A stretch of 64,000 nucleotides of DNA from Streptomyces sp. NBC_01454 (GTDB lineage: Bacteria; Actinomycetota; Actinomycetes; Streptomycetales; Streptomycetaceae), in contig NZ_CP109460.1 of assembly GCF_036227565.1 (NCBI RefSeq), positions 1,116,001-1,180,000 on the forward strand, in the 5' to 3' direction. The position numbers and the translations under genes are program-made. Of the stretch, positions 9,911 through 24,852 are shown in pieces. Positions within the stretch are counted from its first letter, which is position 1, and the number at the start of each line of letters is the position of its first letter. Under the pieces are notes generated by a model. The model was given only the letters and a program-made list of their open reading frames with translations, was not told the DNA's origin and ran no database searches.

Positions 9911-11202
9911 CGGGGGAGGTCCTTCCACGCGACGTCCTTGTCGGTGCGCGGCTCGGGCGGCAGCCCCAGCACGCGTTCGGCGACGATGTTGAGCAGCACT
10001 TCCGAGGTGCCTCCTTCGATGGAGTTCCCCTTGGCGCGCAGATAGCGGTAGCCGGCCTCGCGGCCGGTGAAGTCGACGCCGTCGGGCCGGCGCATCGTCC
10101 AGTCGTCGTAGGTCAGCCCGTCCTCGGCGAGGAACTCCACCTCCCAGCCGCTGATCTCCTGGGCGAGCCGGGCGAACGCCAGCTTCATCCCGCTGCCCTC
10201 GGGGCCGGGTTGGCCCGTGGGGGCACCTCCCGCTCGAACGGAGTTGAGAGTGGGGGAGAGCTGCTGGCGCAGCCGCTCGCCGGTCAGCCGGGCGACCTCG
10301 GCCTCCACCCACAGCGTCAGCAGCCGCTGGTGCAGGTCGTGGGTGCGCAGTGCGGGGCGGGCGCGCCAGTCCTCGGCGGCGACGCCGATCATGCCGCCCT
10401 CACGGGGGATACGGGAGCCTCCGATGGCGACCCGCTCGTTCATCAGCGTGGTCTGCGCGACCTTCCAGCCCTCGCCGACCTCGCCGAGGCGATGGGCGTC
10501 GGGGATCCGCACCCCGGTGAGGAAGACCTCGTTGAACTCGGCCTCGCCGGTGATCTGCCGTAGCGGCCGCACCTCGACGCCGGGGTCGGTCATGTCGCAC
10601 ACGAAGTAGCTGATACCGCGGTGCTTGGGCACCGAGGGGTCGGTGCGGGCGATCAGAATGGCCCAGCGGGCCAGATGCGCGCTGGACGTCCAGACCTTCT
10701 GGCCGTCCACGACCCAGCCTCCCCCGCCCTCCACACCCTGGTCTCTCCCGCCCTCCACAACCCGGTCTCCCCCGCCCTCGGCGTCCGAGCGGGCGCCTTC
10801 CGCGTCCCGTACCGCGCGGGTCGCCAGCGCCGCCAGGTCGGAGCCCGCCCCGGGCTCGCTGAACAGCTGGCACCACACCTCCTCGCCGGTCCACAAGGGG
10901 CGCAGCCAGCGCTGTTTCTGCTCCTCGGAGCCGAAGCGCAGGATGGTCGGCGCGGCCATGCCGAGGCCGATGCCGATCCGTCCCGGGTCGTTGTCGGGGG
11001 CGCCGGCGGCCGTGAGCTCGGCGTCCACGACGGACTGCAGGGAGCGGGGCGCGTCGAGTCCGCCGAGGCCCTCGGGGAAGTGGACCCAGGCGAGCCCGGC
11101 GTCGAAGCGGGCGCGCAGGAAGTCCAGCCGTCCGGTGGTGGCCGGCGGGTGGGCGGTGAGCAGGGCGGCGGTGCGCCGCCGCAGGTCCGCGGCGTCGGTC
11201 AT
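9907..11202 (-). CDS. Acyl-CoA dehydrogenase (first ACAD subunit) with repeat-derived insertions
   Basis: A 431-residue acyl-CoA dehydrogenase. FSEPGAGSDLA is the flavin-contact signature, VVDGQKVWTSSAH the middle beta domain, and EGGTSEVLLNIVAERVLGL the C-terminal helix. Two low-complexity insertions are unusual: about residues 139-161, encoded by 24-base tandem repeats (10721-10780), and about 315-334 (SPTLNSVRAGGAPTGQPG), encoded by a dispersed GC-rich mini-repeat. Both keep the frame and fall in surface-loop positions. The gene overlaps its neighbours by 4 bases on each side (ATGA), so the three genes are co-transcribed. Confidence 0.87.
   Translation of the reverse strand: MTDAADLRRRTAALLTAHPPATTGRLDFLRARFDAGLAWVHFPEGLGGLDAPRSLQSVVDAELTAAGAPDNDPGRIGIGLGMAAPTILRFGSEEQKQRWLRPLWTGEEVWCQLFSEPGAGSDLAALATRAVRDAEGARSDAEGGGDRVVEGGRDQGVEGGGGWVVDGQKVWTSSAHLARWAILIARTDPSVPKHRGISYFVCDMTDPGVEVRPLRQITGEAEFNEVFLTGVRIPDAHRLGEVGEGWKVAQTTLMNERVAIGGSRIPREGGMIGVAAEDWRARPALRTHDLHQRLLTLWVEAEVARLTGERLRQQLSPTLNSVRAGGAPTGQPGPEGSGMKLAFARLAQEISGWEVEFLAEDGLTYDDWTMRRPDGVDFTGREAGYRYLRAKGNSIEGGTSEVLLNIVAERVLGLPPEPRTDKDVAWKDLPR
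10216..10260 (-). repeat. Dispersed mini-repeat inserted in frame
   Basis: On the minus strand the segment starts CTCTCCCCCACTCTCAACTC and ends in GGTGCCCCCA, giving SPTLNSVRAGGAP inside the acyl-CoA dehydrogenase. Elements starting with the same CTCTCCCCC and ending in G-runs recur at 49532 and 51858. It looks like a small mobile or slippage-derived repeat tolerated in loops. Confidence 0.5.
10721..10780. repeat. 24-bp tandem repeat, 2.5 copies
   Basis: Two 24-base units (10721-10744 and 10745-10768) and half of a third, each built on CCCCCGCCCTCCACA. They code for the repeated RVVEGG/QGVEGG segment of the acyl-CoA dehydrogenase. Because 24 is a multiple of three, copy number could vary without breaking the gene. 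Confidence 0.75.
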
Positions 11203-12197
11203 CGTGCCTCCTCCGCTCCGGGGAGCACCACGAGCCGGCCGACGGACGTCCCGTCGGCGACCCGCTGGACGGCGTCGGCGGCCGCGGCCAGCGGGACCCG
11301 CCCGCCGATGAGCGGCTTGACGGTGCCCTGCGCGGCGAGTTTGGTCAGCTCTTCGTGGCAGGCGTCGATCGCGGCCGGGTCCTTGATCTGGTACAGGCCC
11401 CAATGCAGGCCCAGGATCGCGTAGTTCTTCACCAGGGCGTGGTTGAGGGCCGGGCTGGGGATGGCGCCGCCGGCGAAGCCGACGACGACGATCCGGCCCT
11501 CGAACGCGATGCACTTGACCGACTTGGCGTACGCCTCGCCACCCACCGGGTCGTAGACGACATCGGCGCCGCGGCCGCCGGTGGCGTCCTTGACGGCGGC
11601 GACGAGGTCGTCGCGGTGCCGGTCGAGCACGAGGTCGCAGCCCAGTTCACGGGCGACACGGGCCTTCTCCGCGCCGCCCACGACACCGATGACCCGCGCA
11701 CCGGCGGCCTTGCCGAGCTGGACGGCGGCGCTGCCGACGCCACCCGCGGCGGCGTGCACCAGCAGGGTCTCGCCCGGCTGGAGACGGGCCCGGCGGTGCA
11801 GTCCGAACCAGCCGGTCTGGTAGCCGACGTGCAGCGCCGCGGCCTCGGCGTCGTCCAGGACCTCGGGGGCGGGGCGGACGGTTGCCGCGTCGACGACGGC
11901 GAGTTCGGCCAGTCCCCCGCCGGGCAGCGGCGGCTGGGCGAGCACCCGCGCGCCGATGTCACCGGTCGCGCCCTCCCCCACGGCGAGGACCTCGCCGCAG
12001 ATCTCCACGCCCGGGGTGAACGGCAGCGGCGGCCGCGCCTGGTAGAGCCCGCGGCACAGCAGCGCGTCCGGGAAGTTGACGTTGGCGGCCCGCACCCGCA
12101 GCAGCAGCTGCCCGGGGCCCGGCTGGGGATCCGGCACCTCCTCCAGCCGCATCACTTCACGCGGCTCGCCGTTCGCGTGTACGCGCCATGCCTTCAC
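11199..12197 (-). CDS. NADPH:quinone oxidoreductase-like medium-chain dehydrogenase
   Basis: A 332-residue zinc-free MDR-family reductase that would use NADPH to reduce quinones or enoyl-CoA-type substrates. The catalytic domain opens MKAWRVHANGEPREVMRLEE and the Rossmann site is AAAGGVGSAAVQLGK; there is no catalytic-zinc Cys/His set. The GTG at 12197 is preceded by GTGGAGGC, a good ribosome site. It is the first gene of an operon with two acyl-CoA dehydrogenases, joined by an ATGA overlap, and a TetR-like operator lies upstream. In this setting it may act as an enoyl-CoA reductase in fatty or branched acid metabolism. Confidence 0.85.
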   Translation of the reverse strand: MKAWRVHANGEPREVMRLEEVPDPQPGPGQLLLRVRAANVNFPDALLCRGLYQARPPLPFTPGVEICGEVLAVGEGATGDIGARVLAQPPLPGGGLAELAVVDAATVRPAPEVLDDAEAAALHVGYQTGWFGLHRRARLQPGETLLVHAAAGGVGSAAVQLGKAAGARVIGVVGGAEKARVARELGCDLVLDRHRDDLVAAVKDATGGRGADVVYDPVGGEAYAKSVKCIAFEGRIVVVGFAGGAIPSPALNHALVKNYAILGLHWGLYQIKDPAAIDACHEELTKLAAQGTVKPLIGGRVPLAAAADAVQRVADGTSVGRLVVLPGAEEAR

Positions 12198-12262
12198 CTG
12201 GTGCCTCCACAGACTTGGATACGCGGTGGGGCGAAGGGCACACCGGCCCCCTCGCCAGCGAC

Positions 12263-12280
12263 ATACTAAGCGGTCGGTAT
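12263..12280. promoter_or_regulatory. Putative TetR-type operator
   Basis: ATACTAAGCGGTCGGTAT, an imperfect palindrome (outer ATAC/GTAT arms, central CGGTCG), lies 66 bases before the quinone reductase start. Similar sites are bound by TetR repressors that control acyl-CoA dehydrogenase operons in actinomycetes. The regulator gene is not in this stretch. Confidence 0.45.
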
Positions 12281-12367
12281 CCCTGAGGGAACAGTCTCCG
12301 CCACACGGCGGCGACGACGGGCGACGACGGGCATCCGCCCCCTGACGCTCCCCGGGCGGCGCCGCGA

Positions 12368-13438
12368 CTACTCGCCGCGGAGCGCCGCCCAGGTCCCCGG
12401 GTCCTCGAAGCCGAGTGCCCACAGCCCGGTGCCGCGCACCCCGTACTTCCGCAGCAGCGGCATCAGCTCCCGGACACCGCGCGCGTCCTGGTACCAGACC
12501 TCGTGGTCGTCGCCGTCCTTGCGGTAGGTGAAGTGCGGGGTGCCGGACCGCTCGTCGAAGAGGTAGTCCGCGTCCTCCCGCTCGCGCAGCGCCTCGGCCT
12601 CCTTCCAGGTCCGGTGCGCGGCATGGCCGGTGACACCGGTGACCCAGTCCCAGCCGTAGCCGGGGAAGGCCACCTCGATCTTGTCCCGGGGGATGGTGTC
12701 GGTGGCGTAGCGCAGGAATTCGCCGTACCAGTCCCTGGCGGACAGCGGCCCCGCCTCGCCGCCCGACCAGTGCAGGTCATAGCCCATGATCCGGACCCGG
12801 TCGGCGTACCGGCCGAGCTCCTCGTAGTCGAAGGCCTCACCGGACCCGCGGACCCGGGCGGGCACCGTGACCACGCACTGCGCGTCGCGGGCGTGCAGCC
12901 GCGCGCACAGCTGCCTGACGAGCGCGCTGTATCCCGTGCGCACCCGGGCGCGGACCTCCTTGTCGTGGGTGACCGCCATCGACTCGTAATCCAGGTCGAG
13001 CCCGTCGTACGGCCGGCTGTCCATAATCCCCAGCAAGGCCTGCACATGGTCCGCGCGCCGCTGCGGATCATGCATCAGCTCGGCCATCCGCTCGGCGCCG
13101 AGCGTTTCGGTCACGGTGGGGACCACATCGATCCCCGCGTCGTGCAGCCCGTCGATGACGCCGCGCCGGCCCGCCCCTTCGTGCCCCGTGACGGCGGTGT
13201 CCGAGGAGGCCTGGTACCAGAACGGGCTGACGGTGTGCAGCTGGGAGGCGTGCCGCAGGGCGTCGCGGTAGGCGGCGTCGGTGTCGCCCCAGTAGGGAAG
13301 CCAGGCCGAGCCGGTGCGCCCGCCGTCCCTCGACTCCTTGGGCGCGGCGGCCGCCGGGGACCAGGGCACGAGGAGCGCCGTGACGGCCAGGAGGAGCGCA
13401 AGGCCGGTGCGCAGCCGGGATCCCGAAGGCTGTTCCAT
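12368..13438 (-). CDS. Secreted GH18-type glycoside hydrolase
   Basis: A 356-residue exported protein with a signal peptide (residues 1-32, ending AAA). The TIM-barrel signature YDGLDLDYES matches the GH18 motif DGxDxDxE, placing the catalytic acid at Glu152. The barrel strands IDVVPTVTETL and RVRIMGYDLHW also fit. The short single-domain form resembles YaaH/spore-type GH18 proteins acting on peptidoglycan-like N-acetylglucosaminyl chains more than large chitinases; no chitin-binding module is present. An inverted repeat CTGACG-CAC-CGTCAG at 13465-13479 lies just upstream of the start and may be a regulatory site. Confidence 0.82.
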   Translation of the reverse strand: MEQPSGSRLRTGLALLLAVTALLVPWSPAAAAPKESRDGGRTGSAWLPYWGDTDAAYRDALRHASQLHTVSPFWYQASSDTAVTGHEGAGRRGVIDGLHDAGIDVVPTVTETLGAERMAELMHDPQRRADHVQALLGIMDSRPYDGLDLDYESMAVTHDKEVRARVRTGYSALVRQLCARLHARDAQCVVTVPARVRGSGEAFDYEELGRYADRVRIMGYDLHWSGGEAGPLSARDWYGEFLRYATDTIPRDKIEVAFPGYGWDWVTGVTGHAAHRTWKEAEALREREDADYLFDERSGTPHFTYRKDGDDHEVWYQDARGVRELMPLLRKYGVRGTGLWALGFEDPGTWAALRGE

Positions 13439-13698: not shown

Positions 13699-15144
13699 GT
13701 GACTGTCAATGACGACTCGTTCACCAACTGGAAAAACCGCGAAGAGATCGCGGAGTCGATGATCCCGATCATCGGGAAGCTGCACCGTGAGCGGGACGTC
13801 ACGGTCCTGCTACACAGCCGCTCCTTGGTGAACAAGTCGGTGGTCAGCATCCTCAAGACGCACCGCTTCGCCCGGCAGATCGCCGGCGAGGAGCTCTCGA
13901 TCACCGAGACGCTGCCGTTCCTGCAGGCCCTCACCACGCTCGATCTCGGCCCGTCGCAGATCGACATCGCGATGCTCGCCGAGACGTACCGGACCGACGA
14001 CCGCGGTCTGTCGGTGGAGGAGTTCACCGCCGAGGCCGTCGCCGGTGCCACGGGTACCGACAAGATCGAGCGCCGCGAGCCGCGCGACGTCGTCCTCTAC
14101 GGGTTCGGCCGCATCGGCCGCCTCGTCGCCCGCCTGCTCATCGAGAAGGCCGGCTCCGGCAACGGCCTGCGGCTGCGCGCCGTCGTCGTCCGCCAGGGTG
14201 GCGAGCAGGACCTCGTCAAGCGCGCCTCGCTGCTGCGCCGCGACTCCATCCACGGCCAGTTCCAGGGCACGATCACCGTCGACGAGGCGAACAGCAAGAT
14301 CATCGCCAATGGCAACGAGATCAAGGTGATCTACGCGAGCGACCCGTCGGAGGTCGACTACACGGCGTACGGCATCAAGGACGCCATCCTCATCGACAAC
14401 ACCGGAAAGTGGCGCGACCGCGAGGGCCTCTCGAAGCACCTGCGCCCCGGTATCGACAAGGTCGTCCTGACCGCCCCGGGCAAGGGTGACGTCCCCAACG
14501 TCGTCCACGGCGTCAACCACGACTCGATCAAGCCGGACGAGCAGATCCTGTCCTGCGCGTCCTGCACCACCAACGCGATCGTCCCACCGCTGAAGGCGAT
14601 GGCGGACGAGTACGGCGTCCTGCGCGGCCACGTGGAGACCGTCCACTCCTTCACCAACGACCAGAACCTGCTGGACAACTACCACAACTCCGACCGTCGC
14701 GGCCGCTCGGCGCCGCTCAACATGGTCATCACCGAGACCGGTGCCGCCTCGGCCGTCGCCAAGGCGCTGCCCGACCTGGACGCGAAGATCACCGGCAGCT
14801 CGATCCGCGTCCCGGTGCCGGATGTCTCGATCGCGATCCTCAACCTCCAGCTCGCGCGGGAGACCAACCGCGAGGAGGTCCTCGACTACCTCCGCCACGT
14901 GTCGCTGACCTCGCCGCTCAAGCGCCAGATCGACTTCACCAGCGCGCCCGACGCCGTCTCGAACGACTTCATCGGCTCGCGCCACGCCTCGATCGTCGAC
15001 GCCGGCGCCACCAAGGTCGAGGGCGACAACGCGATCCTCTACCTCTGGTACGACAACGAGTTCGGCTACTCCTGCCAGGTCATCCGCGTCGTCCAGCACG
15101 TCTCCGGGGTGGAGTACCCGACCTACCCGGCCCCGGTCGTCTGA
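13699..15144 (+). CDS. gap: Glyceraldehyde-3-phosphate dehydrogenase, long form
   Basis: A 481-residue GAPDH that oxidises and phosphorylates glyceraldehyde 3-phosphate. The NAD site YGFGRIGR begins near residue 134 and the catalytic Cys289 sits in SCASCTTN, followed by the phosphate-binding GRSAPLNM region and YDNEFGYS near the C-terminus. About 128 extra residues precede the Rossmann fold (GKLHRERDVTVLLHSRSLVN), which marks the long actinobacterial GAPDH type rather than the ~335-residue glycolytic form. The start is GTG. The stop codon (15142-15144) is followed two bases later by the 5-bp target duplication of a Tn7-like transposon, so the gene is intact but cut off from its probable terminator. 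Confidence 0.93.
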   Translation: MTVNDDSFTNWKNREEIAESMIPIIGKLHRERDVTVLLHSRSLVNKSVVSILKTHRFARQIAGEELSITETLPFLQALTTLDLGPSQIDIAMLAETYRTDDRGLSVEEFTAEAVAGATGTDKIERREPRDVVLYGFGRIGRLVARLLIEKAGSGNGLRLRAVVVRQGGEQDLVKRASLLRRDSIHGQFQGTITVDEANSKIIANGNEIKVIYASDPSEVDYTAYGIKDAILIDNTGKWRDREGLSKHLRPGIDKVVLTAPGKGDVPNVVHGVNHDSIKPDEQILSCASCTTNAIVPPLKAMADEYGVLRGHVETVHSFTNDQNLLDNYHNSDRRGRSAPLNMVITETGAASAVAKALPDLDAKITGSSIRVPVPDVSIAILNLQLARETNREEVLDYLRHVSLTSPLKRQIDFTSAPDAVSNDFIGSRHASIVDAGATKVEGDNAILYLWYDNEFGYSCQVIRVVQHVSGVEYPTYPAPVV

Positions 15145-15146
15145 TC

Positions 15147-15151
15147 GCGGC
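15147..15151. repeat. Target-site duplication, copy 1 (GCGGC)
   Basis: GCGGC directly abuts the first terminal repeat of the Tn7-like element. The same five bases directly follow the other end at 22075-22079. A 5-bp duplication is the hallmark of Tn7-type insertion. Confidence 0.85.
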
Positions 15152-15176
15152 TCTAGGATCCGCATGATCATTGACA
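15152..15176 (+). repeat. Terminal inverted repeat, tnsA-side end
   Basis: The 25 bases begin TCTAGG and end CATGATCATTGACA. They match the reverse complement of 22050-22074 at 22 positions; the mismatches are at positions 2, 7 and 11. The innermost 14 bases are identical in the two ends. Confidence 0.88.
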
Positions 15177-15227
15177 ATGAAGGTGTTTCATTGACATCGG
15201 ATTGGCAAATCCGCGGTTCCTTTGACA
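15171..15227 (+). promoter_or_regulatory. Repeated TTGACA motifs, probable TnsB-binding sites
   Basis: TTGACA occurs at 15171-15176, 15191-15196 and 15222-15227, two of them extended to TTGACAATG. GATTGGCAA at 15200-15208 has an inverted counterpart TTGCCAATC at 22008-22016 in the other end. Tn7-type ends carry several copies of a transposase-binding repeat, and these fit that role. One TTGACA could also serve as a promoter element for tnsA. Confidence 0.6.
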
Positions 15228-15312
15228 ATGGCTACGTTCAGTAGCGGTCCTCTCTGGGCCTCTTTCGATCTCCGCTGAGTCTGCAACGCCCGCTCTCCGT
15301 ACCGTCTCAAGC

Positions 15313-16065
15313 ATGGCAGTACGGAGAGCGGGCGGTACCCGTCGTACACGAAAAGTCCCTTCGACCTCGATCCGGTACGTCGATGGATCGGTACGCGAAG
15401 TCCCGATCCGACAACTCAGGTTGACCGATTTTGCGGAGTCCCAGCCGTGGCGGGCTGTTCGCTCCGTCCACGGGATGGCCCACTACTCGGGCAAGTACTC
15501 GTCTGCAACGACGGGTGGGCACGTGGTGTACGAAAGCCGCCTGGAGCTCGCCCGATTGCTGCTGGCGGACTTCGATCCGGAAGTGCGGGGGATCTTTGCT
15601 CAGCCGTGCCGCCTGGCGGCCCGGGTCGGCGACCGGACTCGCCACCACGTGCCGGACTTTCTGCTGGTCATGCGTTCGGGGACCGTGCGGGTGGTGAATG
15701 TCAAGCCAGCGAGCCGCTTGAAGGATCCGAAGATCGTGGAGGCTCTTGCGTGGCCTGGCGAGCTGTTCCGGCAGCATGGCTGGGACTACGAAATCTGGTC
15801 CGGAGCGGATCGGGTGCTGCTGGAGAACGTGCGGTTCCTCGCTGCCTACCGGCGTCCCGGTGTGGTGTCCGCAACGGAAACAGAGCAGGCATGGCAGCAG
15901 GTGACCGACGGCGAAAAACTGGCCTTGGCTGAGCGCCAGTTGGCCAATGGGCGGCCCGCCGAGGAGGCGAGGCCAGCGTTCATGGCTCTGTTGTGGTCGG
16001 GACGGTTGACGACGGACCTGTCGCGTCCGTTGTCGGGTGAGTCGGTGCTGCGCAGGTGCGTATGA
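15313..16065 (+). CDS. tnsA: TnsA-like transposon endonuclease
   Basis: A 250-residue homologue of TnsA, the restriction-endonuclease-fold subunit that cuts the 5' strands at the transposon ends and so allows cut-and-paste movement. The core reads VYESRLELARLLLADFDPEV, then HHVPDFLLV and VRVVNVKP, giving candidate metal ligands Glu74, Asp115 and Lys131 in the E-D-xK order of the family, with nearly the same spacing as in Tn7 TnsA. The C-terminal part would contact TnsC. No strong ribosome site is seen before the ATG at 15313. The stop overlaps the tnsB start (ATGA). Confidence 0.88.
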   Translation: MAVRRAGGTRRTRKVPSTSIRYVDGSVREVPIRQLRLTDFAESQPWRAVRSVHGMAHYSGKYSSATTGGHVVYESRLELARLLLADFDPEVRGIFAQPCRLAARVGDRTRHHVPDFLLVMRSGTVRVVNVKPASRLKDPKIVEALAWPGELFRQHGWDYEIWSGADRVLLENVRFLAAYRRPGVVSATETEQAWQQVTDGEKLALAERQLANGRPAEEARPAFMALLWSGRLTTDLSRPLSGESVLRRCV

Positions 16066-18251
16066 GCACGTGGACGACGCCCTTGAGGCCAGGGTTGCCG
16101 ATCAGCTTCGACGGTGAACAATTCACGGTCGCCGAAATTGAGGGTCGCCGGATTCTTCTCCAGCCGGCAGTCTCTGTCGTCGGTGTCCCGCAGTGGCGGC
16201 AGGTTGATATCTCTGTGCTGTTGGCGCATCCCACCACCGAGATCCTCACTCCGGCCCCGCAAGGTGAATCAGCTGATGCGGCTGCCCTGAGCGGTCTCAG
16301 CGACAAAGAGGACGATGAGCTGACCCGGCAGTTTCGCCATGTCCAGGAGGTCCGCACCGGCTATCAACTCGGCAGCGAGGAACTGGCTCTGGCGGGCGAG
16401 CCACGACCCGACTACGCGCCCGGAACACCGAAAATGCACCGGTACGCGGCCAAGGCGGCAGAACTGGGAGTTTCCGAAACCACGATCCGCAACTGGGTAC
16501 GGCAAGTGAATAGCTCCGGCCCGGCCGGCCTGGTTCGCGACCGCCCTCAAAAGAGCGTGCTTGACAAGGTCGACCCTCGGTGGCTGGAGATGACCCGGTC
16601 AGTTTTGAAAGGCCACGAGAAGTCATCCCGGCCGGTGCGGAGTCTGATCCTGATCGAGATCGAAGAGCGTCTGGCCAAGAAGTATGGGGATGGCACGGTC
16701 CCGTTTCCGGCCCGCACGACGGGCTATGAGGCACTTCGAGTGCTTACCAAGGGAACGAACGCCTTCGAGGGCAGCACGAAGGGGAAGAGGTCGATCGCGG
16801 ACGCCCCGAAGGGGACCTACGGTCGGCTGCGCGCGACACGACCGGGCGAGTATGTGGTGCTGGACACCAACTGCCTGGACGTCTTCGCGATGGAACCGGT
16901 GACCTGCCGGTGGGTGCGGTGTGAGCTCACGGTCGCGATGGATCTCTATAGCCGGTGCATCACCGGGCTCCGCCTCACCCCGGTGTCGACGAAGTCAACG
17001 GACGTGGCTGGGGTGTTGTTCGAGACGGTCCGGCCACAAGACGTTCCGGGGGACGGGAGCGAGCCGCTGCCGTATTGCGGAGTGCCGTCCACCGTCGTGG
17101 TCGATGCGGACAAGCTCGTCGACCGGGACGGGCAGCCGCTGCTGCCCACGGTCGCGGCCGAGACGATCATCTATGACCACGGCAAGGTCTACCTGTCGAA
17201 CCACATCGAGAGCGTCTGCGCGAAGCTGGACATCTCTCTGCAGCCGGCCCGGCCGAAGACACCGACCGACAAGCCGGTCGAACGCTGGTTCCGAACCCTC
17301 AACCAGGGAGTGCTGGCCGCGCTGCCCGGCTACAAGGGCTCGGACGTGCACAGCCGCGGCGAGAAGGTCGAGGACGAGGCATTCTTCTTCATCGACGAAC
17401 TCGAAGCGATCATCCGTGAATGGATCACTCTGATCTATCACCGGCGCCGCCACCGCGGCCTGCGGATTCCGGAGGTCCCTGGGCTTCAGCTCAGTCCGCT
17501 GGACATGTTCGAGCACGGAGTCACCCGGGCGGGACCACTGCGGATCCCGGCCCGCCCCAATATGGCTCTGGAGTTCCTGGAGGAGGAACGCGTCCCGATC
17601 CACCACTACGGCGTCGAGATCGAAGGGATGCGCTACAACGGGGATGCGCTGAACAACTACCGCAACCAGCCCAGCCCCTATCGCGGAGTGGACGCGGGCA
17701 AGTGGCCGATCGCGGTGGACCGCGGCGATATGCGCAAGGTGTATTTCCAGGACCCAGACCTTCGGACATGGCATACGCTCGACTGGGAACACGCGGCCGC
17801 CCTGAATGGACCGTTCAGCAGAGAGGCGCTGGTCTACGCTCGCCGGATTGCGAAGAAGACGCACCGGTTCCCCGACACCAAACGCGCGTTGGTCGAACTC
17901 CTCGAACGGTGGGGCGCCGGATTGGCCGCGGATCGCACTGAGCGACGCATGGCCCTCCGTCTCTCCCAGGAACGGCTACAGCTGGTGGGAGAGGCCGACG
18001 AACCACGGGAGGCAGAGGACGAGGTCGCCTCGCTGCCATCGGTCCGACGCATTGCCGCCCTGAGTCCATCCGAACAAGACCCAGCAGAAGCCGAGCCCGC
18101 CGAGCCCGGCCTTGTCATCGTCGGAACTGAGGACAACGAACTCGGCGGGGACGACGACGAGGATGAGGAATGCGAGGCAGCCTTCCCGGGCGACGAATCC
18201 GCTCTCATCGATGAGGACGACTACTACGCCGATATCTGGGACAGCCGTTGA
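16062..18251 (+). CDS. tnsB: TnsB-like DDE transposase
   Basis: A 729-residue integrase-core transposase that binds the ends and joins the 3' ends to the target. An N-terminal helix-turn-helix (AAELGVSETTIRNWVRQV) precedes the RNase-H-type catalytic core with Asp268 (VVLDTNCLDV), Asp348 (VVVDADKLVD) and Glu407 (PVERWFRTLNQ). A Mu-type beta-barrel region follows, then an acidic tail (GGDDDEDEEC) that probably contacts TnsC. The ATG at 16062 overlaps the tnsA stop; a GTG two codons upstream is the alternative. All catalytic residues are in place, so it looks functional. Confidence 0.9.
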   Translation: MSTWTTPLRPGLPISFDGEQFTVAEIEGRRILLQPAVSVVGVPQWRQVDISVLLAHPTTEILTPAPQGESADAAALSGLSDKEDDELTRQFRHVQEVRTGYQLGSEELALAGEPRPDYAPGTPKMHRYAAKAAELGVSETTIRNWVRQVNSSGPAGLVRDRPQKSVLDKVDPRWLEMTRSVLKGHEKSSRPVRSLILIEIEERLAKKYGDGTVPFPARTTGYEALRVLTKGTNAFEGSTKGKRSIADAPKGTYGRLRATRPGEYVVLDTNCLDVFAMEPVTCRWVRCELTVAMDLYSRCITGLRLTPVSTKSTDVAGVLFETVRPQDVPGDGSEPLPYCGVPSTVVVDADKLVDRDGQPLLPTVAAETIIYDHGKVYLSNHIESVCAKLDISLQPARPKTPTDKPVERWFRTLNQGVLAALPGYKGSDVHSRGEKVEDEAFFFIDELEAIIREWITLIYHRRRHRGLRIPEVPGLQLSPLDMFEHGVTRAGPLRIPARPNMALEFLEEERVPIHHYGVEIEGMRYNGDALNNYRNQPSPYRGVDAGKWPIAVDRGDMRKVYFQDPDLRTWHTLDWEHAAALNGPFSREALVYARRIAKKTHRFPDTKRALVELLERWGAGLAADRTERRMALRLSQERLQLVGEADEPREAEDEVASLPSVRRIAALSPSEQDPAEAEPAEPGLVIVGTEDNELGGDDDEDEECEAAFPGDESALIDEDDYYADIWDSR

Positions 18252-19375
18252 AAGCGCCGGACGGCGTCGAGCCGTTCGAAGGCGACGACCGCCAGTACAG
18301 TCCCACCCGGCTTCCGGGCTGGCTTCAGGAGGTCAACGGGCCGGACCGGATCCGACCGGAACAGCACACCAGAGCGCAACTGGCTGACCTCTCGCCGCGA
18401 GCGCTCTTAATGCATAACGACAGCCGGGCGGTCTGGCATGCCAACATCGGCCCGATTGAAACCCCGCAACTCCTCCAACTACACGATGAGCTGGACGAGA
18501 TTGTCGATTCGAACCGGCAGGACGGGGATAAGACGAAACCGGCAGCACTGCTGGATTCCTACCCAGGACTCGGAAAGAGCACCGCAGTCCGCGCCTACGG
18601 CCGGAAGCTATTCCGTGAACAGATCACCTTGCGCGGGGAAACCACCCCTAGCGGAGACCGCAGGGTCCCCATCATCTACATCGCACTGAGTGGGAACACA
18701 CAGATCCGCGGCCTGAACGCCGCGATCTGCCGCTTCTACGGACTGCCGGTCACGGGGGACGCCGACACCCTGGCCGAGCGGGCTGTGGACGCGGTGTTGT
18801 CCATGAGAACCGCCGTTTTCATCATCGACGACATCCACTTCCTGGCCGGAGCGAAAACCAACTCGGTTCGCATGTCCAACCAGTTGAAGTACCTGGCAAA
18901 CGTCTTCCCTGTCACCCTCATCTATGTCGGCGTCGGGGTCCAGCAGCGCGGCATCCTCAGCGAGGGATTCTCCGGCAAGAAGAACGAACTCGCCCAGTTC
19001 GGACGCCGCACCACTCCACTGACATTGCTCCCTTTCCAGATCGAGAACGAGGAGGGACGTCGGCAGTGGCAGGTCCTGCTGAAGACGATCGAGAAGAAGC
19101 TCGTCCTGGCGGAGAAATACCCAGGGATGCTCGCCCAGGAACTTTCCGACTATCTCTACTCTCGCTCCACCGGCCACTTTGCCTCCCTCATGGCACTGAT
19201 CAACCGCGGCTGCCTCCGCGCCATCCGCTGCGGCCATGAGCGCCTCGACAAGGACCTCATGGACCAGGTGAAGAACGACGTCGCTGCCGAGGAAGCCCGT
19301 GAGGAACTCGAAGCCGCCATCGAGGCCGGCCTGCTGACCAGTCATCCCGCATCACCCGGCAGGAAATCGGCATGA
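18248..19375 (+). CDS. tnsC: TnsC-like AAA+ ATPase, transposition regulator
   Basis: A 375-residue AAA+ protein linking target selection to the transposase. Walker A is SYPGLGKST (Lys110) and Walker B is AVFIIDDIHFL (Asp194-Asp195), followed by a sensor-like region (PVTLIYVGVGVQQRG). The reading frame overlaps the tnsB stop through TTGA, which implies a TTG start and coupling to tnsB; the next ATG lies more than 50 codons in and would cost conserved N-terminal sequence. Its size is closer to TniB/TnsC proteins of compact elements than to the 555-residue TnsC of Tn7. Confidence 0.88.
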   Translation: MKAPDGVEPFEGDDRQYSPTRLPGWLQEVNGPDRIRPEQHTRAQLADLSPRALLMHNDSRAVWHANIGPIETPQLLQLHDELDEIVDSNRQDGDKTKPAALLDSYPGLGKSTAVRAYGRKLFREQITLRGETTPSGDRRVPIIYIALSGNTQIRGLNAAICRFYGLPVTGDADTLAERAVDAVLSMRTAVFIIDDIHFLAGAKTNSVRMSNQLKYLANVFPVTLIYVGVGVQQRGILSEGFSGKKNELAQFGRRTTPLTLLPFQIENEEGRRQWQVLLKTIEKKLVLAEKYPGMLAQELSDYLYSRSTGHFASLMALINRGCLRAIRCGHERLDKDLMDQVKNDVAAEEAREELEAAIEAGLLTSHPASPGRKSA

Positions 19376-21954
19376 CGGAATGGACGGATGACCGCATTCC
19401 TCTCTGGGTTCCCCCGGTTGAGGGGGAGTCCCTCGACAGCTGGCTGGCGGCATACGCCCGCCGCCTGCGGACGGGCGTGCCGCAGTTCCTGAGCTTCATT
19501 GGTCTGCACAGAGCCCGTCCCAACCACATGGTCCGGTATCTGACAGACCGCGAACGGCAGGTACTTTCCGAACGCACGGGGCTCGCCTCGGAGGAACTGA
19601 CGCCGATGACGCTCGAACCCTGGGACGGAGTGGCGGTGAACATCGACCGTCCGACGCGCCGTCTGAGCCGCCCACCGAACTGGCGGCACACCGGCAATAC
19701 CAGCCGCTTCTGCCCCGGTTGTCTCGACGAAAGCGCCGGACGTTGGCAGATTTCATGGCGACTGCCGTGGTCATTTGCCTGCACCCGGCACGGAATGCTG
19801 TTGCTCGATTGCTGCCCAGAATGCGGACAACCGCCCGTGGTTCATGGGCGACAGCACCTGCGGAACTCTCCTGCGGGAGTCTGCCTCTACGGAACGGGCA
19901 CTGCCGGCGCCGCCCCCTGCGAGTTCTTCCTGCCGCACGCGGCTACCCCTGTCCTCTCTGCAGACTCATTGGTCCTCAATGCCCAGCAAGACGCCACCTC
20001 CAAATTCTTGCAAATCGGTGATTCTCTGGACGACTCCTTGCTGCATGGTCGCGAACTGGCCGTCCTCGGCCGGTCGGCATTGCGCGGGATCAACGACAGG
20101 CTGTCCACAGCGCCTTCCGTTGTCCATGAAGTCCTCGCGGAACTCGGTGGTGATCTGCCTAAACTAGCGAATCGAGAGAGCGGAGTGAACGCTCACGGCG
20201 TGGCAGTTGGCACCACCATCGCCAGGATTGCAGTGCTCCAGGACCGGGATGACAGTGATGCAGTCTTTGCTTGGTTGATGGAGGCCCAACGTTCGAGGCG
20301 GAAGAATACTTATCCGACATCCTGGCTCGTTGACTGGGTTCCAGCCGGACCCCGCGTGATGTCTCGTGCTCTGACCGCCGTGTCCAACGAACTGACCTGG
20401 ACTGCGCGCCTGCGTTTCGGCACGACCACGAGTGGTCCGACCTGGCCGACCCTCGCCGACGAAGACGTACGACGTCGAGCGGCCCGACTGCCGGCGATGC
20501 TCTGGCCCTCTTGGACAATCCGGATGTTGCCTCGCCTGCCCGAACCCCTATTCAGGTTGTCCGGACTCCGCCGAGCATGCGCGACTCTGCTCCTTACGCC
20601 TGGAACATTCTGGGACTATCCTAGAGCCGCTGAACTTCTGGGCAATCCGCACACATCCGACAACAGGAATGCTCTCGACGCAGCACTCGAAAAGCAGCGC
20701 CCCGATGAACTTGCCGCACTCTTGGCCGAGTTAGCTCGCGCTATTGACGCTCATCCAGTTCCCATCGACTATCGCCGTCGGCGGACCATCTTCTCCGAGG
20801 CCACTATCAGATTCGACCTGGACGCCTTCCATGGGTACTGCCGCCGTCGCGGCCTTCGGAGCGGACCGACGCAGATCAAGAGACTCCGGTGGCACCTTCT
20901 CAAGATTCTCCTCGGAGCAGACCCTGGCAGCTCATCCCGGACCCCGACCTGGAACACGAACCTCTCGCACCAGATCACCACAGAGCTCAAAGGATTCCTC
21001 TTCCAGCAGGCAGTAAAGAACCTCCAGGCTCACCAAATTGAAGAACCCGTGCTTTGGCAACCGCCGGCCACCTGGCTCGAAAGAATTGCATGGCCCGGAG
21101 AAGATCCCGAAAAGATCGACCACTCCGCACTCGCCGAGATGCTGATCGCGGGCCGCCCGCTGGCGGAGGTTGCGAGACACCTGGACATCAGCGAGGACCA
21201 CGTCCTCTTGCACCTTGAAATGGCTGATATCGGTGGGACAGCGCCCGATCCCCCGCCGCGTCCCAGCGTTCCGGGCCGCAACATTCCGCGCCAAGACGTT
21301 CTCTCGCCACGAGAACTGCAACGGCTCTACCAGGAACAGCGACTCTCTGTCGTCGATATCGCGCAGCTCGCGGGGTGCAGCTCTCGCACCGTTCGTCGAG
21401 CACTCGTCGAGGCCAAGATCCCTAGCTCAGGGCGCGGAGTTCCTCCCCTCCTGCCGGGCATGGTTACCAGAGATTGGCTGGAAGGGGAGTACGCCATGAA
21501 AGGACGCGGCTGTCTTGATATCGCGCACGAACTCGGCCTCCATCAAGACACCGTGTCGCGCTTCCTGCGGATTTGGGACATCCCGCGACGTTCCAACGGA
21601 CTCGGTTCGAACCCCTTCGCCCACCTCGGTGTCGCGCTCTCGCCAGAAATGCGACGCCTCAGTAATAGGAGGAGCTGCCTGCCGTGGCTACGCAACCTCC
21701 TCCAAATACCCGGACACCCCGGCCTGTCGGCTGCCGCACCGGCAATCAGCGTCCCCGAGGTCACCCTCCGCCGGCAGCTCAGGATCATTGAAAGCGTCGT
21801 GGGGTTCAGCGTGATCGAGCGAACCGACCCGCTGTCTCCCACTCCGACGGGCGTGAGATTCCTGACCGAAGCTCGCGATCTCCTTGATCGTTTCGACAGC
21901 GCCGCAACGCTGGTCGCAACCGGCTCGAGCAGGACCTCAGACCACTCACGGTGA
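19372..21954 (+). CDS. Large TniQ/TnsD-like target-site selector
   Basis: An 860-residue TniQ-family protein. The N-terminal TniQ domain (residues 1 to about 155) has the zinc ligands Cys114/Cys117 (FCPGC), Cys137/His140 and Cys148/Cys151 (CPEC). The middle resembles the TnsD extension. The C-terminal third holds several DNA-binding helix-turn-helix candidates: LAEVARHLDISEDHVLLHLE, SVVDIAQLAGCSSRTVRRAL and CLDIAHELGLHQDTVSRFL, then a LysR-like segment. TniQ/TnsD proteins bind a fixed attachment site and recruit TnsC. The element sits directly past gap, so this protein probably recognises the gap 3' end. The ATG overlaps the tnsC stop (ATGA). Confidence 0.87.
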   Translation: MTEWTDDRIPLWVPPVEGESLDSWLAAYARRLRTGVPQFLSFIGLHRARPNHMVRYLTDRERQVLSERTGLASEELTPMTLEPWDGVAVNIDRPTRRLSRPPNWRHTGNTSRFCPGCLDESAGRWQISWRLPWSFACTRHGMLLLDCCPECGQPPVVHGRQHLRNSPAGVCLYGTGTAGAAPCEFFLPHAATPVLSADSLVLNAQQDATSKFLQIGDSLDDSLLHGRELAVLGRSALRGINDRLSTAPSVVHEVLAELGGDLPKLANRESGVNAHGVAVGTTIARIAVLQDRDDSDAVFAWLMEAQRSRRKNTYPTSWLVDWVPAGPRVMSRALTAVSNELTWTARLRFGTTTSGPTWPTLADEDVRRRAARLPAMLWPSWTIRMLPRLPEPLFRLSGLRRACATLLLTPGTFWDYPRAAELLGNPHTSDNRNALDAALEKQRPDELAALLAELARAIDAHPVPIDYRRRRTIFSEATIRFDLDAFHGYCRRRGLRSGPTQIKRLRWHLLKILLGADPGSSSRTPTWNTNLSHQITTELKGFLFQQAVKNLQAHQIEEPVLWQPPATWLERIAWPGEDPEKIDHSALAEMLIAGRPLAEVARHLDISEDHVLLHLEMADIGGTAPDPPPRPSVPGRNIPRQDVLSPRELQRLYQEQRLSVVDIAQLAGCSSRTVRRALVEAKIPSSGRGVPPLLPGMVTRDWLEGEYAMKGRGCLDIAHELGLHQDTVSRFLRIWDIPRRSNGLGSNPFAHLGVALSPEMRRLSNRRSCLPWLRNLLQIPGHPGLSAAAPAISVPEVTLRRQLRIIESVVGFSVIERTDPLSPTPTGVRFLTEARDLLDRFDSAATLVATGSSRTSDHSR

Positions 21955-22049
21955 TTGCCGGAGCGGTGCTCAACGCCAAGATTGAGAAGCCTGGGCTGAC
22001 AACGGCGTTGCCAATCTGACCCGGATTTCGGCGTTTCTGCAGGAAACAG

Positions 22050-22074
22050 TGTCAATGATCATGAGGAACCTACA
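22050..22074 (-). repeat. Terminal inverted repeat, tniQ-side end
   Basis: Read on the minus strand, the 25 bases begin TGTAGG, the TGT terminus common to Tn7-like ends, and finish CATGATCATTGACA. They pair with 15152-15176 at 22 of 25 positions. Confidence 0.88.
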
Positions 22075-22079
22075 GCGGC
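22075..22079. repeat. Target-site duplication, copy 2 (GCGGC)
   Basis: Identical to 15147-15151. It directly follows the distal terminal repeat. Confidence 0.85.
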
Positions 22080-23818: not shown

Positions 23819-23966
23819 GATCCTCTCAAGACTCGTCTCACGAGGAGGGTAGACGCGAACGATTCGTCAGCCGTCGCAGGTGCCATGGGACTTGACCTCT
23901 TCGCAGAAGGCGCCCACAGCTCTCGGCCCATCGCTTCCGGTGTGCCTGGCCGCAAGAGTCACCCTT

Positions 23967-24852
23967 GAATCTCCTTTCGGAATGAGTTCAGGCGTCACCA
24001 ACAGATGAGTGCGCATCCGAGAGCGAGGAAGGCTTCGTGGATGTCTTTGCGTATCTCCCAGCGGATCCGCAGGCGGCGGAACCAGTGCAGGTGGGCGAAC
24101 GCGCGCTACGACCCGGCGTTGGGTGCCGAGTCCGGACCCATGCTCGGTGCCCCGGCGGGCGATCAGCGGCTTCACGCCGAGATCCCGGACCAGACGGCGG
24201 TACTTGTCGTGGTCGTAGCCGCGGTCGCCCAGCACCACGTCCGGGCGGCGCCGGGGCCGGCCTCGCTTGCCCCGCGCCGGCGGTACCGCCTGAAGCAGCG
24301 GGATCAGCTGGGTGACGTCGTTGCGGTTGCCGCCGGTCAAGGTGGCGGCGAGCGGGATACCGGTGGCGTCGGTGATCAGGTGATGCTTGCTGCCCGTCCT
24401 GCCCCGGTCGACAGGGCTTCGTCCCGTCTTGGTGCCCCTTTTAACGCCCGGATGTGGGAGCCGTCGACCGCCGCCCGGGAGAAGTCCCGGGCGTCTGCGG
24501 TGCGGAGTTCGGCGAGGAGAACCTCGTGAAGCCGGGGTCACACACCGGCCTCGGTCCACTCGGCCAGGCGGCGCCAGCAGGTCATACCCGAACCGAAGCC
24601 GAGTTCCTGCGGCAGGTGTTCCCAGGCGATCCCGGTATGCAGGACGAACAGGATGCCCTGGAACACCAGCCGGTCCGGATGACCCTTGCGCCCGGAGTGC
24701 CGAGCCCGACGCTCGACCTTGGGCAGCGGTGGCTCGATCACCGCCCACAGCTCGCCGTCGACTTCCCATGGCTTCGACCGCGCCACCCCGCACCCCAGAT
24801 CATCAGTCCCGGAGTGATCCAACCACCTTGCAAAGCATTTCGTTAGAAGTTC
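23967..24852 (-). mobile_element. Decayed IS5-family insertion sequence
   Basis: Imperfect ends GAATCTCCTTTCGGAATG (23967-23984) and CATTTCGTTAGAAGTTC (24836-24852) bound an element of about 890 bp carrying one transposase gene on the minus strand. The length and transposase type fit the IS5 family. A clear target duplication was not found. The element joins the 3' end of the HAD gene. Confidence 0.7.
23995..24822 (-). pseudogene. IS5-type transposase, broken
   Basis: Homology runs across three frames. From 24822 the N-terminal part (ELWAVIEPPLPKVERRARHS, GIAWEHLPQELGFGSGMTCW) meets an in-frame TGA at 24538-24540 where related enzymes have Trp. The same frame then continues to VDGSHIRALKG, shifts by one base near 24440 to KRGTKTGRSPVDRGRTGSKH and DVVLGDRGYDHD, and shifts again near 24105 to give the usual C-terminus AFAHLHWFRRLRIRWEIRKD. 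The first shift could be programmed, as in some IS5 relatives, but the stop codon and the second shift show that it is dead. Confidence 0.82.

Follow-up and report, generated by a model that had tools for sequence, protein, structure and literature searches.

The stretch analysed here, 64,000 nucleotides of Streptomyces sp. NBC_01454 (the window; contig NZ_CP109460.1, positions 1,116,001 to 1,180,000), carries an intact gap gene for glyceraldehyde-3-phosphate dehydrogenase (GAPDH), followed after a spacer of 7 bp past its stop codon by an element with the gene set of a Tn7-like transposon (Table 1). The genes run in the order tnsA-tnsB-tnsC-tniQ with successive 4-bp overlaps ATGA, TTGA and ATGA, leaving non-coding margins of 161 bp from the left end to tnsA and 120 bp from the tniQ stop to the right end. 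A first-pass annotation had described a complete Tn7-like element with intact genes, each overlapping the next by four bases, between GCGGC duplications with exact ends and 25-bp inverted ends matching at 22 positions. All of this is present in the sequence: the four frames and both ends are intact. That annotation made no comment on the gap gene upstream, nor on a second copy of the element on a plasmid-like contig of the same assembly (C2), and these are the subject of most of what follows.

Table 1. Features of the gap locus and of the element behind it (window positions; pLDDT, predicted local distance difference test)
Feature	Position	Strand	Basis
gap, glyceraldehyde-3-phosphate dehydrogenase, 481 aa, PRK08289 type; target gene, intact	13699..15144	+	NCBIfam NF006139 780 bits
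Left copy of 5-bp target duplication, GCGGC	15147..15151	.	
Whole transposon, 6,923 bp	15152..22074	+	Second copy on C2 with exactly the same limits, identical
Left (tnsA-proximal) end, TCTAGGATCC...	15152..15231	+	TTGACA-type repeats at +20, +40, +71; TTGGCA variant near +50
tnsA, 250 aa	15313..16065	+	PF08722 30.8 bits (above cut-off); NCBIfam NF033179 TnsA_like_Actin 241 bits, cut-off 110
tnsB, DDE transposase, 729 aa from ATG 16062	16062..18251	+	phmmer to PDB TnsB; DD35E
tnsC, AAA+ ATPase, 375 aa, TTG start	18248..19375	+	PF13401, PF05621 TniB, both above cut-off
tniQ/tnsD-like target selector, 860 aa	19372..21954	+	PF06527 84.9 bits; AlphaFold2 model pLDDT 89.6
TniQ core, residues 10-144, with CxxC pairs	19399..19803	+	
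Three helix-turn-helix units, TniQ residues 584-617, 646-680, 700-734	21121..21573	+	Model helix triplets; helix-turn-helix Pfam matches for first two, third by model
LysR-type winged helix, TniQ residues 768-855	21673..21936	+	
Right end, TGTAGGTTCC...	21986..22074	-	TTGACA-type repeat at +20; TTGGCA/TTGTCA variants near +60-75
Right copy of 5-bp target duplication, GCGGC	22075..22079	.	

The catalytic residues, which the first-pass annotation had also reported to be in place, are found in all four proteins: the DD35E triad of TnsB (D268-D372-E407, 35 residues between the second D and the E), Walker A (GLGK at 107) and Walker B (FIIDD at 191) of TnsC, CxxC pairs at 114 and 148 of TniQ (the second, 148-151, just outside the core), and D115 and K131 (of VNVK) of TnsA, whose glutamate could be either E74 or E78 of YESRLELARLL. 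The tnsB frame could also start at GTG 16056. Against proteins of solved structure, phmmer matched TnsB to that of a V-K CRISPR-associated transposon (CAST; 5e-13) and to Tn7 TnsB (7pik; 1.7e-5). An AlphaFold2 model of TniQ, run on 62 sequences in place of a 10-sequence alignment that had given a pLDDT of 54, predicts a TniQ/TnsD core with four helix-turn-helix (HTH) units and a fold match to TniQ and TnsD; its helical middle (~residues 345-760) has no match among those listed by VIA-align, which does not amount to evidence of a new fold.

The four genes fill the element: no cargo and no further operon gene was seen, there is no tnsE and no room for a fifth operon gene, and no room between the ends for a Cas effector or CRISPR array, although no dedicated CRISPR search was made. 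Tn7 of Escherichia coli carries tnsABCDE, and its attachment site, attTn7, lies behind glmS; with gap as its target and four genes filling it, the element in the window is not Tn7 proper. It does have TnsA, TnsB, TnsC and TniQ, a 5-bp duplication with inverted ends and, with the copy on C2 as the exception, a fixed attachment site and orientation, and thus belongs among the Tn7-like transposons. Benler et al. (2021; PMC8649781) give 96% as the proportion of Tn7-like elements carrying at least one cargo gene, so that the cargo-less state is a minority one and does not exclude the element from this group.

The inverted ends, TCTAGGATCCGCATGATCATTGACA and TGTAGGTTCCTCATGATCATTGACA, are by themselves weak evidence for the boundaries, their similarity being modestly beyond chance (22 for the best 25-mer match within the 1-kb flanks, where 30 single-base shuffles reached at most 20). 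The boundaries are proven by the second copy, together with its own duplication and an uninterrupted plasmid site. This copy lies in reverse orientation on contig C2 (639 kb), is 100% identical across all 6,923 bp, and has GCTGT, a 5-bp duplication of its own, on either side. C2 resembles a large plasmid, and the regions around the copy match Streptomyces plasmid records (the collection searched held plasmids only). Joining the C2 flanks through a single GCTGT gives a sequence that 12 plasmid records match unbroken over the junction; base-by-base alignment of two of these shows no gap there. The joined flanks form one open frame of 115 residues, a plasmid gene that the C2 copy interrupts. An identical second copy, with a duplication of its own at a site that is uninterrupted in related plasmids, implies both that the limits are correct and that the element moved recently. 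The suggestion of the first-pass annotation that the element may be active is plausible on the same grounds: two identical copies stand at two sites within different duplications.

The pattern TNTAGGNTCC-N3-13-ATTGACA has exactly four occurrences in the 9.46-Mb genome, one at each end of each copy, indicating two elements and, by that motif, no solo ends. The TTGACA-type repeats within the ends (three on the left; one clear repeat plus variants on the right) are presumed TnsB sites. Single-strand folding of the two ends gave z values of -1.9 and 0.1. Among relatives, ten further two-ended elements have a matching 5-bp duplication (L041, L043, L045, L046, L051, L055, L063, L065, L079, L108; several of these were recognised using the duplication as a criterion); candidate right ends of L047, L048 and L113 gave no matching one. 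The right end of the G262 element did not turn up in 79 kb of joined sequence.

Relatives were drawn from four sources: the best TnsB matches in 392 genus genomes (20 loci), plasmid records (6 taken of those listed), a profile search of genome contigs with the TniQ alignment (12 loci), and TniQ matches in 394 family genomes (10 loci). A contig scan with a single TniQ query gave 41 stretches and no confirmed locus. Each collected locus was searched over its full length for GAPDH. Forty-six loci have a TniQ match, from which two duplicates (L073, equal to L109, and L116, equal to L078) were removed before counting; the fragments L081 and L083, which lack tnsA, fall outside the 46, L074 is the same locus as L047, and L112, another copy of the L111 element, was retained. 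Two rows with almost no left flank, L062 and L076, are within the count. The left-end motif was not found in nine rows (L058, L059, L062, L077, L078, L080, L082, L045, L116); the left end of L045 was recovered by a duplication search, and the other eight were assessed only for absence of GAPDH from the locus.

In six distinct loci a GAPDH gene adjoins the left end: the window, L047 (L074; S. albospinus), L054, L072 (S. olindensis), L075 (S. diastatochromogenes) and L108. The distances from stop codon to element are, in that order, 7, 8, 8, 7, 7 and 7 bp, and the tnsA end is always toward gap. All six distinct loci collected whose TniQ is at least 60% identical to that of the window are at gap (the plasmid copy aside), and none of the 38 rows below 60% has a GAPDH gene (Fisher 1.4e-7, for rows that are not independent, the relatives within each backbone being related). 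A search blind to TniQ, for a gap C-terminus followed by an element end, picked out three of the 392 genus genomes, and in that sample these three are also the carriers of a gap-type TniQ. Since L075 and L108, for example, have gap variants that escape the exact pattern, three is a minimum. A reversed control of the pattern gave none. L108 (Streptomyces G503) is a second complete gap element, of 6,933 bp with duplication CACCT; relative to the window element its TnsA, TnsB and TnsC are 88-92% identical and its TniQ 65%, and its genome has one TniQ match at E<=1e-100, so that no plasmid copy is seen there.

The chromosomal empty site is less sharply defined. Part of the joined flanks is matched in 53 of 61 genomes (own included), in many over only a short stretch, and among 11 relatives' loci aligned to the joined flanks (none of them same-species) two, L085 and L086, cross the junction at ~86% without the element; in the other nine, divergence of the spacer ends the alignment at the gap stop codon or close to it. 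No tRNA was found in the window. At L047 (G191:C13, ~10447-12960; also L074) there is in addition an 838-aa open frame that joins nearly all of TnsC directly to the C-terminal part of TniQ (residue 370 onward) and lacks the TniQ core, and directly behind it a second set of ends, making a tandem at gap. This frame could be either a natural fusion of TnsC and selector or a deletion product.

Selector and transposase have different histories. In a tree of the TniQ proteins (38 rows entered both this and the TnsB tree), the six gap TniQs form one clade with full support (Shimodaira-Hasegawa-like approximate likelihood ratio test, SH-aLRT, 100), and a single change accounts for the gap state. The TnsB tree splits the gap elements in two, with the window, L047 and L108 next to the ABC-exporter element L041, and L054, L072 and L075 elsewhere, so that the gap state needs two changes; forcing one gap clade on this tree is rejected (approximately unbiased, AU, test, p 5e-78). 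Eight named site classes need 7 changes on the TniQ tree, the minimum possible, and 9 on the TnsB tree. These are quick trees, with a long-branch warning outside the gap groups. TnsB and TnsC are ~70-84% identical to those of many elements at other sites, while TniQ there is 35-48% identical. Similarity of TnsB and TnsC was tried as a predictor of site and rejected: L041 (TnsB 84%) and L077 (83%) have no GAPDH, and L054, L072 and L075 (68%) do. In this sample, then, insertion position follows the TniQ clade and not the transposase. The conflict between the trees implies that the TniQ gene, or the backbone around it, was exchanged, and that the insertion site travelled with TniQ; it seems that sister elements have changed their landing site by swapping TniQ. 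Faure et al. (2023; PMC10293859) found only a few loci with two selectors; the proteins there are distantly related, which would fit a transfer of tniQ/tnsD from one transposon to another. An Annual Review article (PMC11406308) notes promiscuous exchange of TniQ partners in another branch.

We consider it highly probable that the window holds a complete, cargo-less and recently mobile Tn7-like transposon, with actinobacterial TnsA, TnsB and TnsC and one long TniQ/TnsD-like selector, that homes to the 3' end of gap. The proposed sequence of events is as follows. The C-terminal HTH array of TniQ would bind the conserved 3' coding end of gap; the bound TniQ would recruit TnsC, and TnsC in turn TnsA and TnsB holding both element ends. 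The element would then be excised and joined 7-8 bp past the gap stop codon by a 5-bp staggered cut, with the tnsA end toward gap; insertion at this distance leaves the host gene intact. The same machinery would also have placed the identical copy in the plasmid gene.

That plasmid copy is one reason to ask whether the element has much site preference at all, the gap position being due to chance or to a general liking for spots just behind genes: it interrupts an unrelated plasmid gene, and some relatives also lie inside genes (L042, L051). This explanation is strongly disfavoured by the recurrence of one 7-8 bp position in all six close-TniQ loci and in none of the 38 others, by the TniQ-blind pattern finding only the same three genomes in the genus sample, and by the near-fixed distances in ABC-exporter genes regardless of where the stop codon lies (see below); we regard it as extremely improbable. 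Another possibility is that one ancient gap insertion was inherited vertically, linking TniQ similarity and site with no targeting involved, as the presence of three fairly close elements on each backbone might suggest. It is difficult to reconcile with one TniQ clade and one site on two TnsABC backbones or with a junction pattern present in as few as three genus genomes; 7- and 8-bp registers occur in both backbones, which also speaks against it, though a one-base change in the spacer could give the same result. Vertical inheritance of this kind appears quite improbable. Homing might also be real but directed by TnsC, or by features of the host locus such as the transcription end or structure at gap, with TniQ as an adaptor only, the role that Faure et al. 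(PMC10293859) give to the small TniQ proteins of CASTs. Here the TniQ is long, with four HTH units in the model, TnsB and TnsC are largely common to elements at other sites whose TniQ differs, and no further operon gene is seen; we think this very unlikely. Finally, some relatives are clearly broken (L057, L059), and the window element might likewise be a dead relic, but with all four frames and the ends intact and two identical copies at two sites this seems very improbable.

Several observations do weigh against homing by TniQ, or limit it. Targeting is not absolute, as the plasmid copy is not at gap: of seven insertions known for the gap TniQ group, six are at gap and the seventh is this copy. 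Right ends are located in only three of the six gap loci (window, L047, L108), and the tandem at L047 has candidate right ends flanked by GTCAT and CCCCG against CGGCG, with no matching duplication. The gap elements of the second backbone (L054, L072, L075) are close relatives, for which vertical inheritance of an old insertion is possible. The tie between TniQ group and site is imperfect: L065, whose TniQ frame is shortened, belongs to the NlpC/P60 group and has a GH15 gene as its site; the two DnaB rows do not pair as sisters; and the ABC-exporter rows split into two TniQ groups. As to the gene set itself, the Pfam match of TnsA is weak, and a sequence search of the PDB found TnsA no match among solved structures.

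How did the second copy come to lie in a plasmid gene? At 76 nt from the insertion, in a frame and at a distance shared with the gap of the window, this gene has QLVELITAVSGLDD in place of the QVIRVVQHVSGVEY of gap; the resemblance, at protein level, was spotted by eye ahead of any matrix test. With a matrix built from the six gap sites and applied in register, only 0.076% of background positions outscore the plasmid site for the best of five stretches (0.18-2.8% for the remaining four); among in-frame coding positions it lies in the top 0.35% for the best of six stretches (0.7-8% for the others). Once the choice of stretch is allowed for, the resemblance is only suggestive of a weak or degenerate gap-like site. 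A broader model can be put forward tentatively: a single TniQ may both home behind gap and target the plasmid through a degenerate gap-like sequence (a CAG codon stands 76 nt before the insertion in both), with neither TnsE nor a CRISPR plasmid selector, and such TniQs may have been swapped as plug-in modules among actinobacterial TnsABC backbones, giving protein-guided systems with distinct sites (gap, ABC exporter, glycosyltransferase, DnaB, NlpC/P60).

Upstream genes recur within other TniQ groups as well. Seven rows lie at ABC exporter ATPase genes (L041, L043, L044, L050, L109, L111, L112), with the insertion 132-138 nt from the ADRI codon both where the stop codon comes before it and where it does not, and three of three measured rows at family-2 glycosyltransferase genes lie 122-124 nt from YRxH, L114 reading as a fourth. 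Two elements (L063, L079) are found at the 3' end of dnaB, the replicative helicase gene, 8 and 11 bp past the stop; these are 12.0 and 10.0 kb long, of a size to hold cargo. NlpC/P60 genes adjoin L045, L060 and L061, and a PCMT-like methyltransferase gene is interrupted in L042 and L051. Sites were named by Pfam for L043, L050 and L109 (ABC), L053 (GT2), L042 (PCMT), L063 (DnaB), L061 (NlpC/P60), L065 (GH15) and L115 (PucR), from the record annotation for L045, and by eye from C-terminal sequence for the remaining rows of each group; the frame upstream of L049 had no Pfam match and was given no site class. The ABC-exporter elements sit at the 3' end of the gene, sometimes removing its last codons; L043 is beside a lasso-peptide gene, and genome G474 holds two copies of one element (L111, L112) at two ABC exporter genes. 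L045 is on a Streptomyces plasmid beside a gene annotated as conjugal transfer, and L046 on a Rhodococcus plasmid behind a peptidase gene. At L110 (G525:C181, near 3217) a left end directly follows the apparent right end of another element, with a second tnsA piece upstream, an arrangement of tandem Tn7-like elements.

The first-pass annotation considered a Tn7-like element unusual in a Streptomyces-type genome. This did not stand: TnsB relatives (E<=1e-20, many of them distant) are present in 175 of 392 genus genomes, which rules out rarity in the host group, the TnsA belongs to an actinobacterial NCBIfam family, and an Actinobacteria-dominated clade has been published (PMC8649781). The genome of the window itself has an open TniQ frame of 635 aa with a TniB-like ATPase upstream (L007, G000:C1:1810000-1828000) and a 167-aa TniQ fragment beside an rve/HTH_21 transposase (L006, G000:C2:521000-538000); neither locus has a TnsB passing the genus TnsB search. 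Three kb from the plasmid copy lies an IS21-like transposase pair (L005, 15369-17692; the first with rve and Mu-transpos_C_2, the second recognised by eye), and within the window, at 23867-24822 (- strand), there are frames that by eye resemble pieces of an IS5-type transposase.

The element resembles Tn7 in its TnsA, TnsB and TnsC with a TniQ-domain selector, its 5-bp duplication, and its insertion in one orientation just past a conserved housekeeping gene. It differs in its target, gap, at 7-8 bp past the stop codon, in having one selector only, no tnsE and no cargo, in its distant TnsB, and in the C-terminal LysR-type domain of TniQ. The Actinobacteria-dominated clade of Benler et al. (PMC8649781), which that paper describes as having no experimentally characterised member, shares host phylum and gene set with the window element, which on these features very probably belongs to it; neither "glyceraldehyde" nor "gap gene" occurs in the main text of that paper. 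The TnsD-type selectors of CASTs and Tn7 have the same layout, a TniQ core followed by a long C-terminal region of multiple HTH units that is interpreted as the reader of the attachment site (PMC10293859), and the window element lacks the CRISPR part. The dual-selector loci of Faure et al. differ from the present ones, which are single-selector elements with conflicting selector and transposase trees. Protein-guided Tn7 homing is described in PMC11406308 and PMC10293859 at few genes: glmS, parE, tRNA genes and comM. No paper was found that names gap as a Tn7-like attachment site, in a search with most subscription papers and supplements outside it, so that a table entry elsewhere is possible; in one paper joining Tn7-like elements and GAPDH (PMC10201428), GAPDH is a blot control, and tnsB and tnsC beside Streptomycetaceae CRISPR loci (PMC12231136) have a different arrangement. 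Tn7-like elements in Actinobacteria are thus known, and what appears from these comparisons to be new is the site and its selector.

If this reading is correct, the list of natural insertion points gains, in Streptomyces, the 3' end of gap, where the gene stays intact and where six genomes have the insertion at the same position, along with the further candidate sites above. As related backbones carry different TniQs at different sites, these elements constitute a natural experiment on how TniQ/TnsD proteins read DNA and on whether they can be swapped, and the gap element is a candidate single-locus integration tool for Streptomyces.

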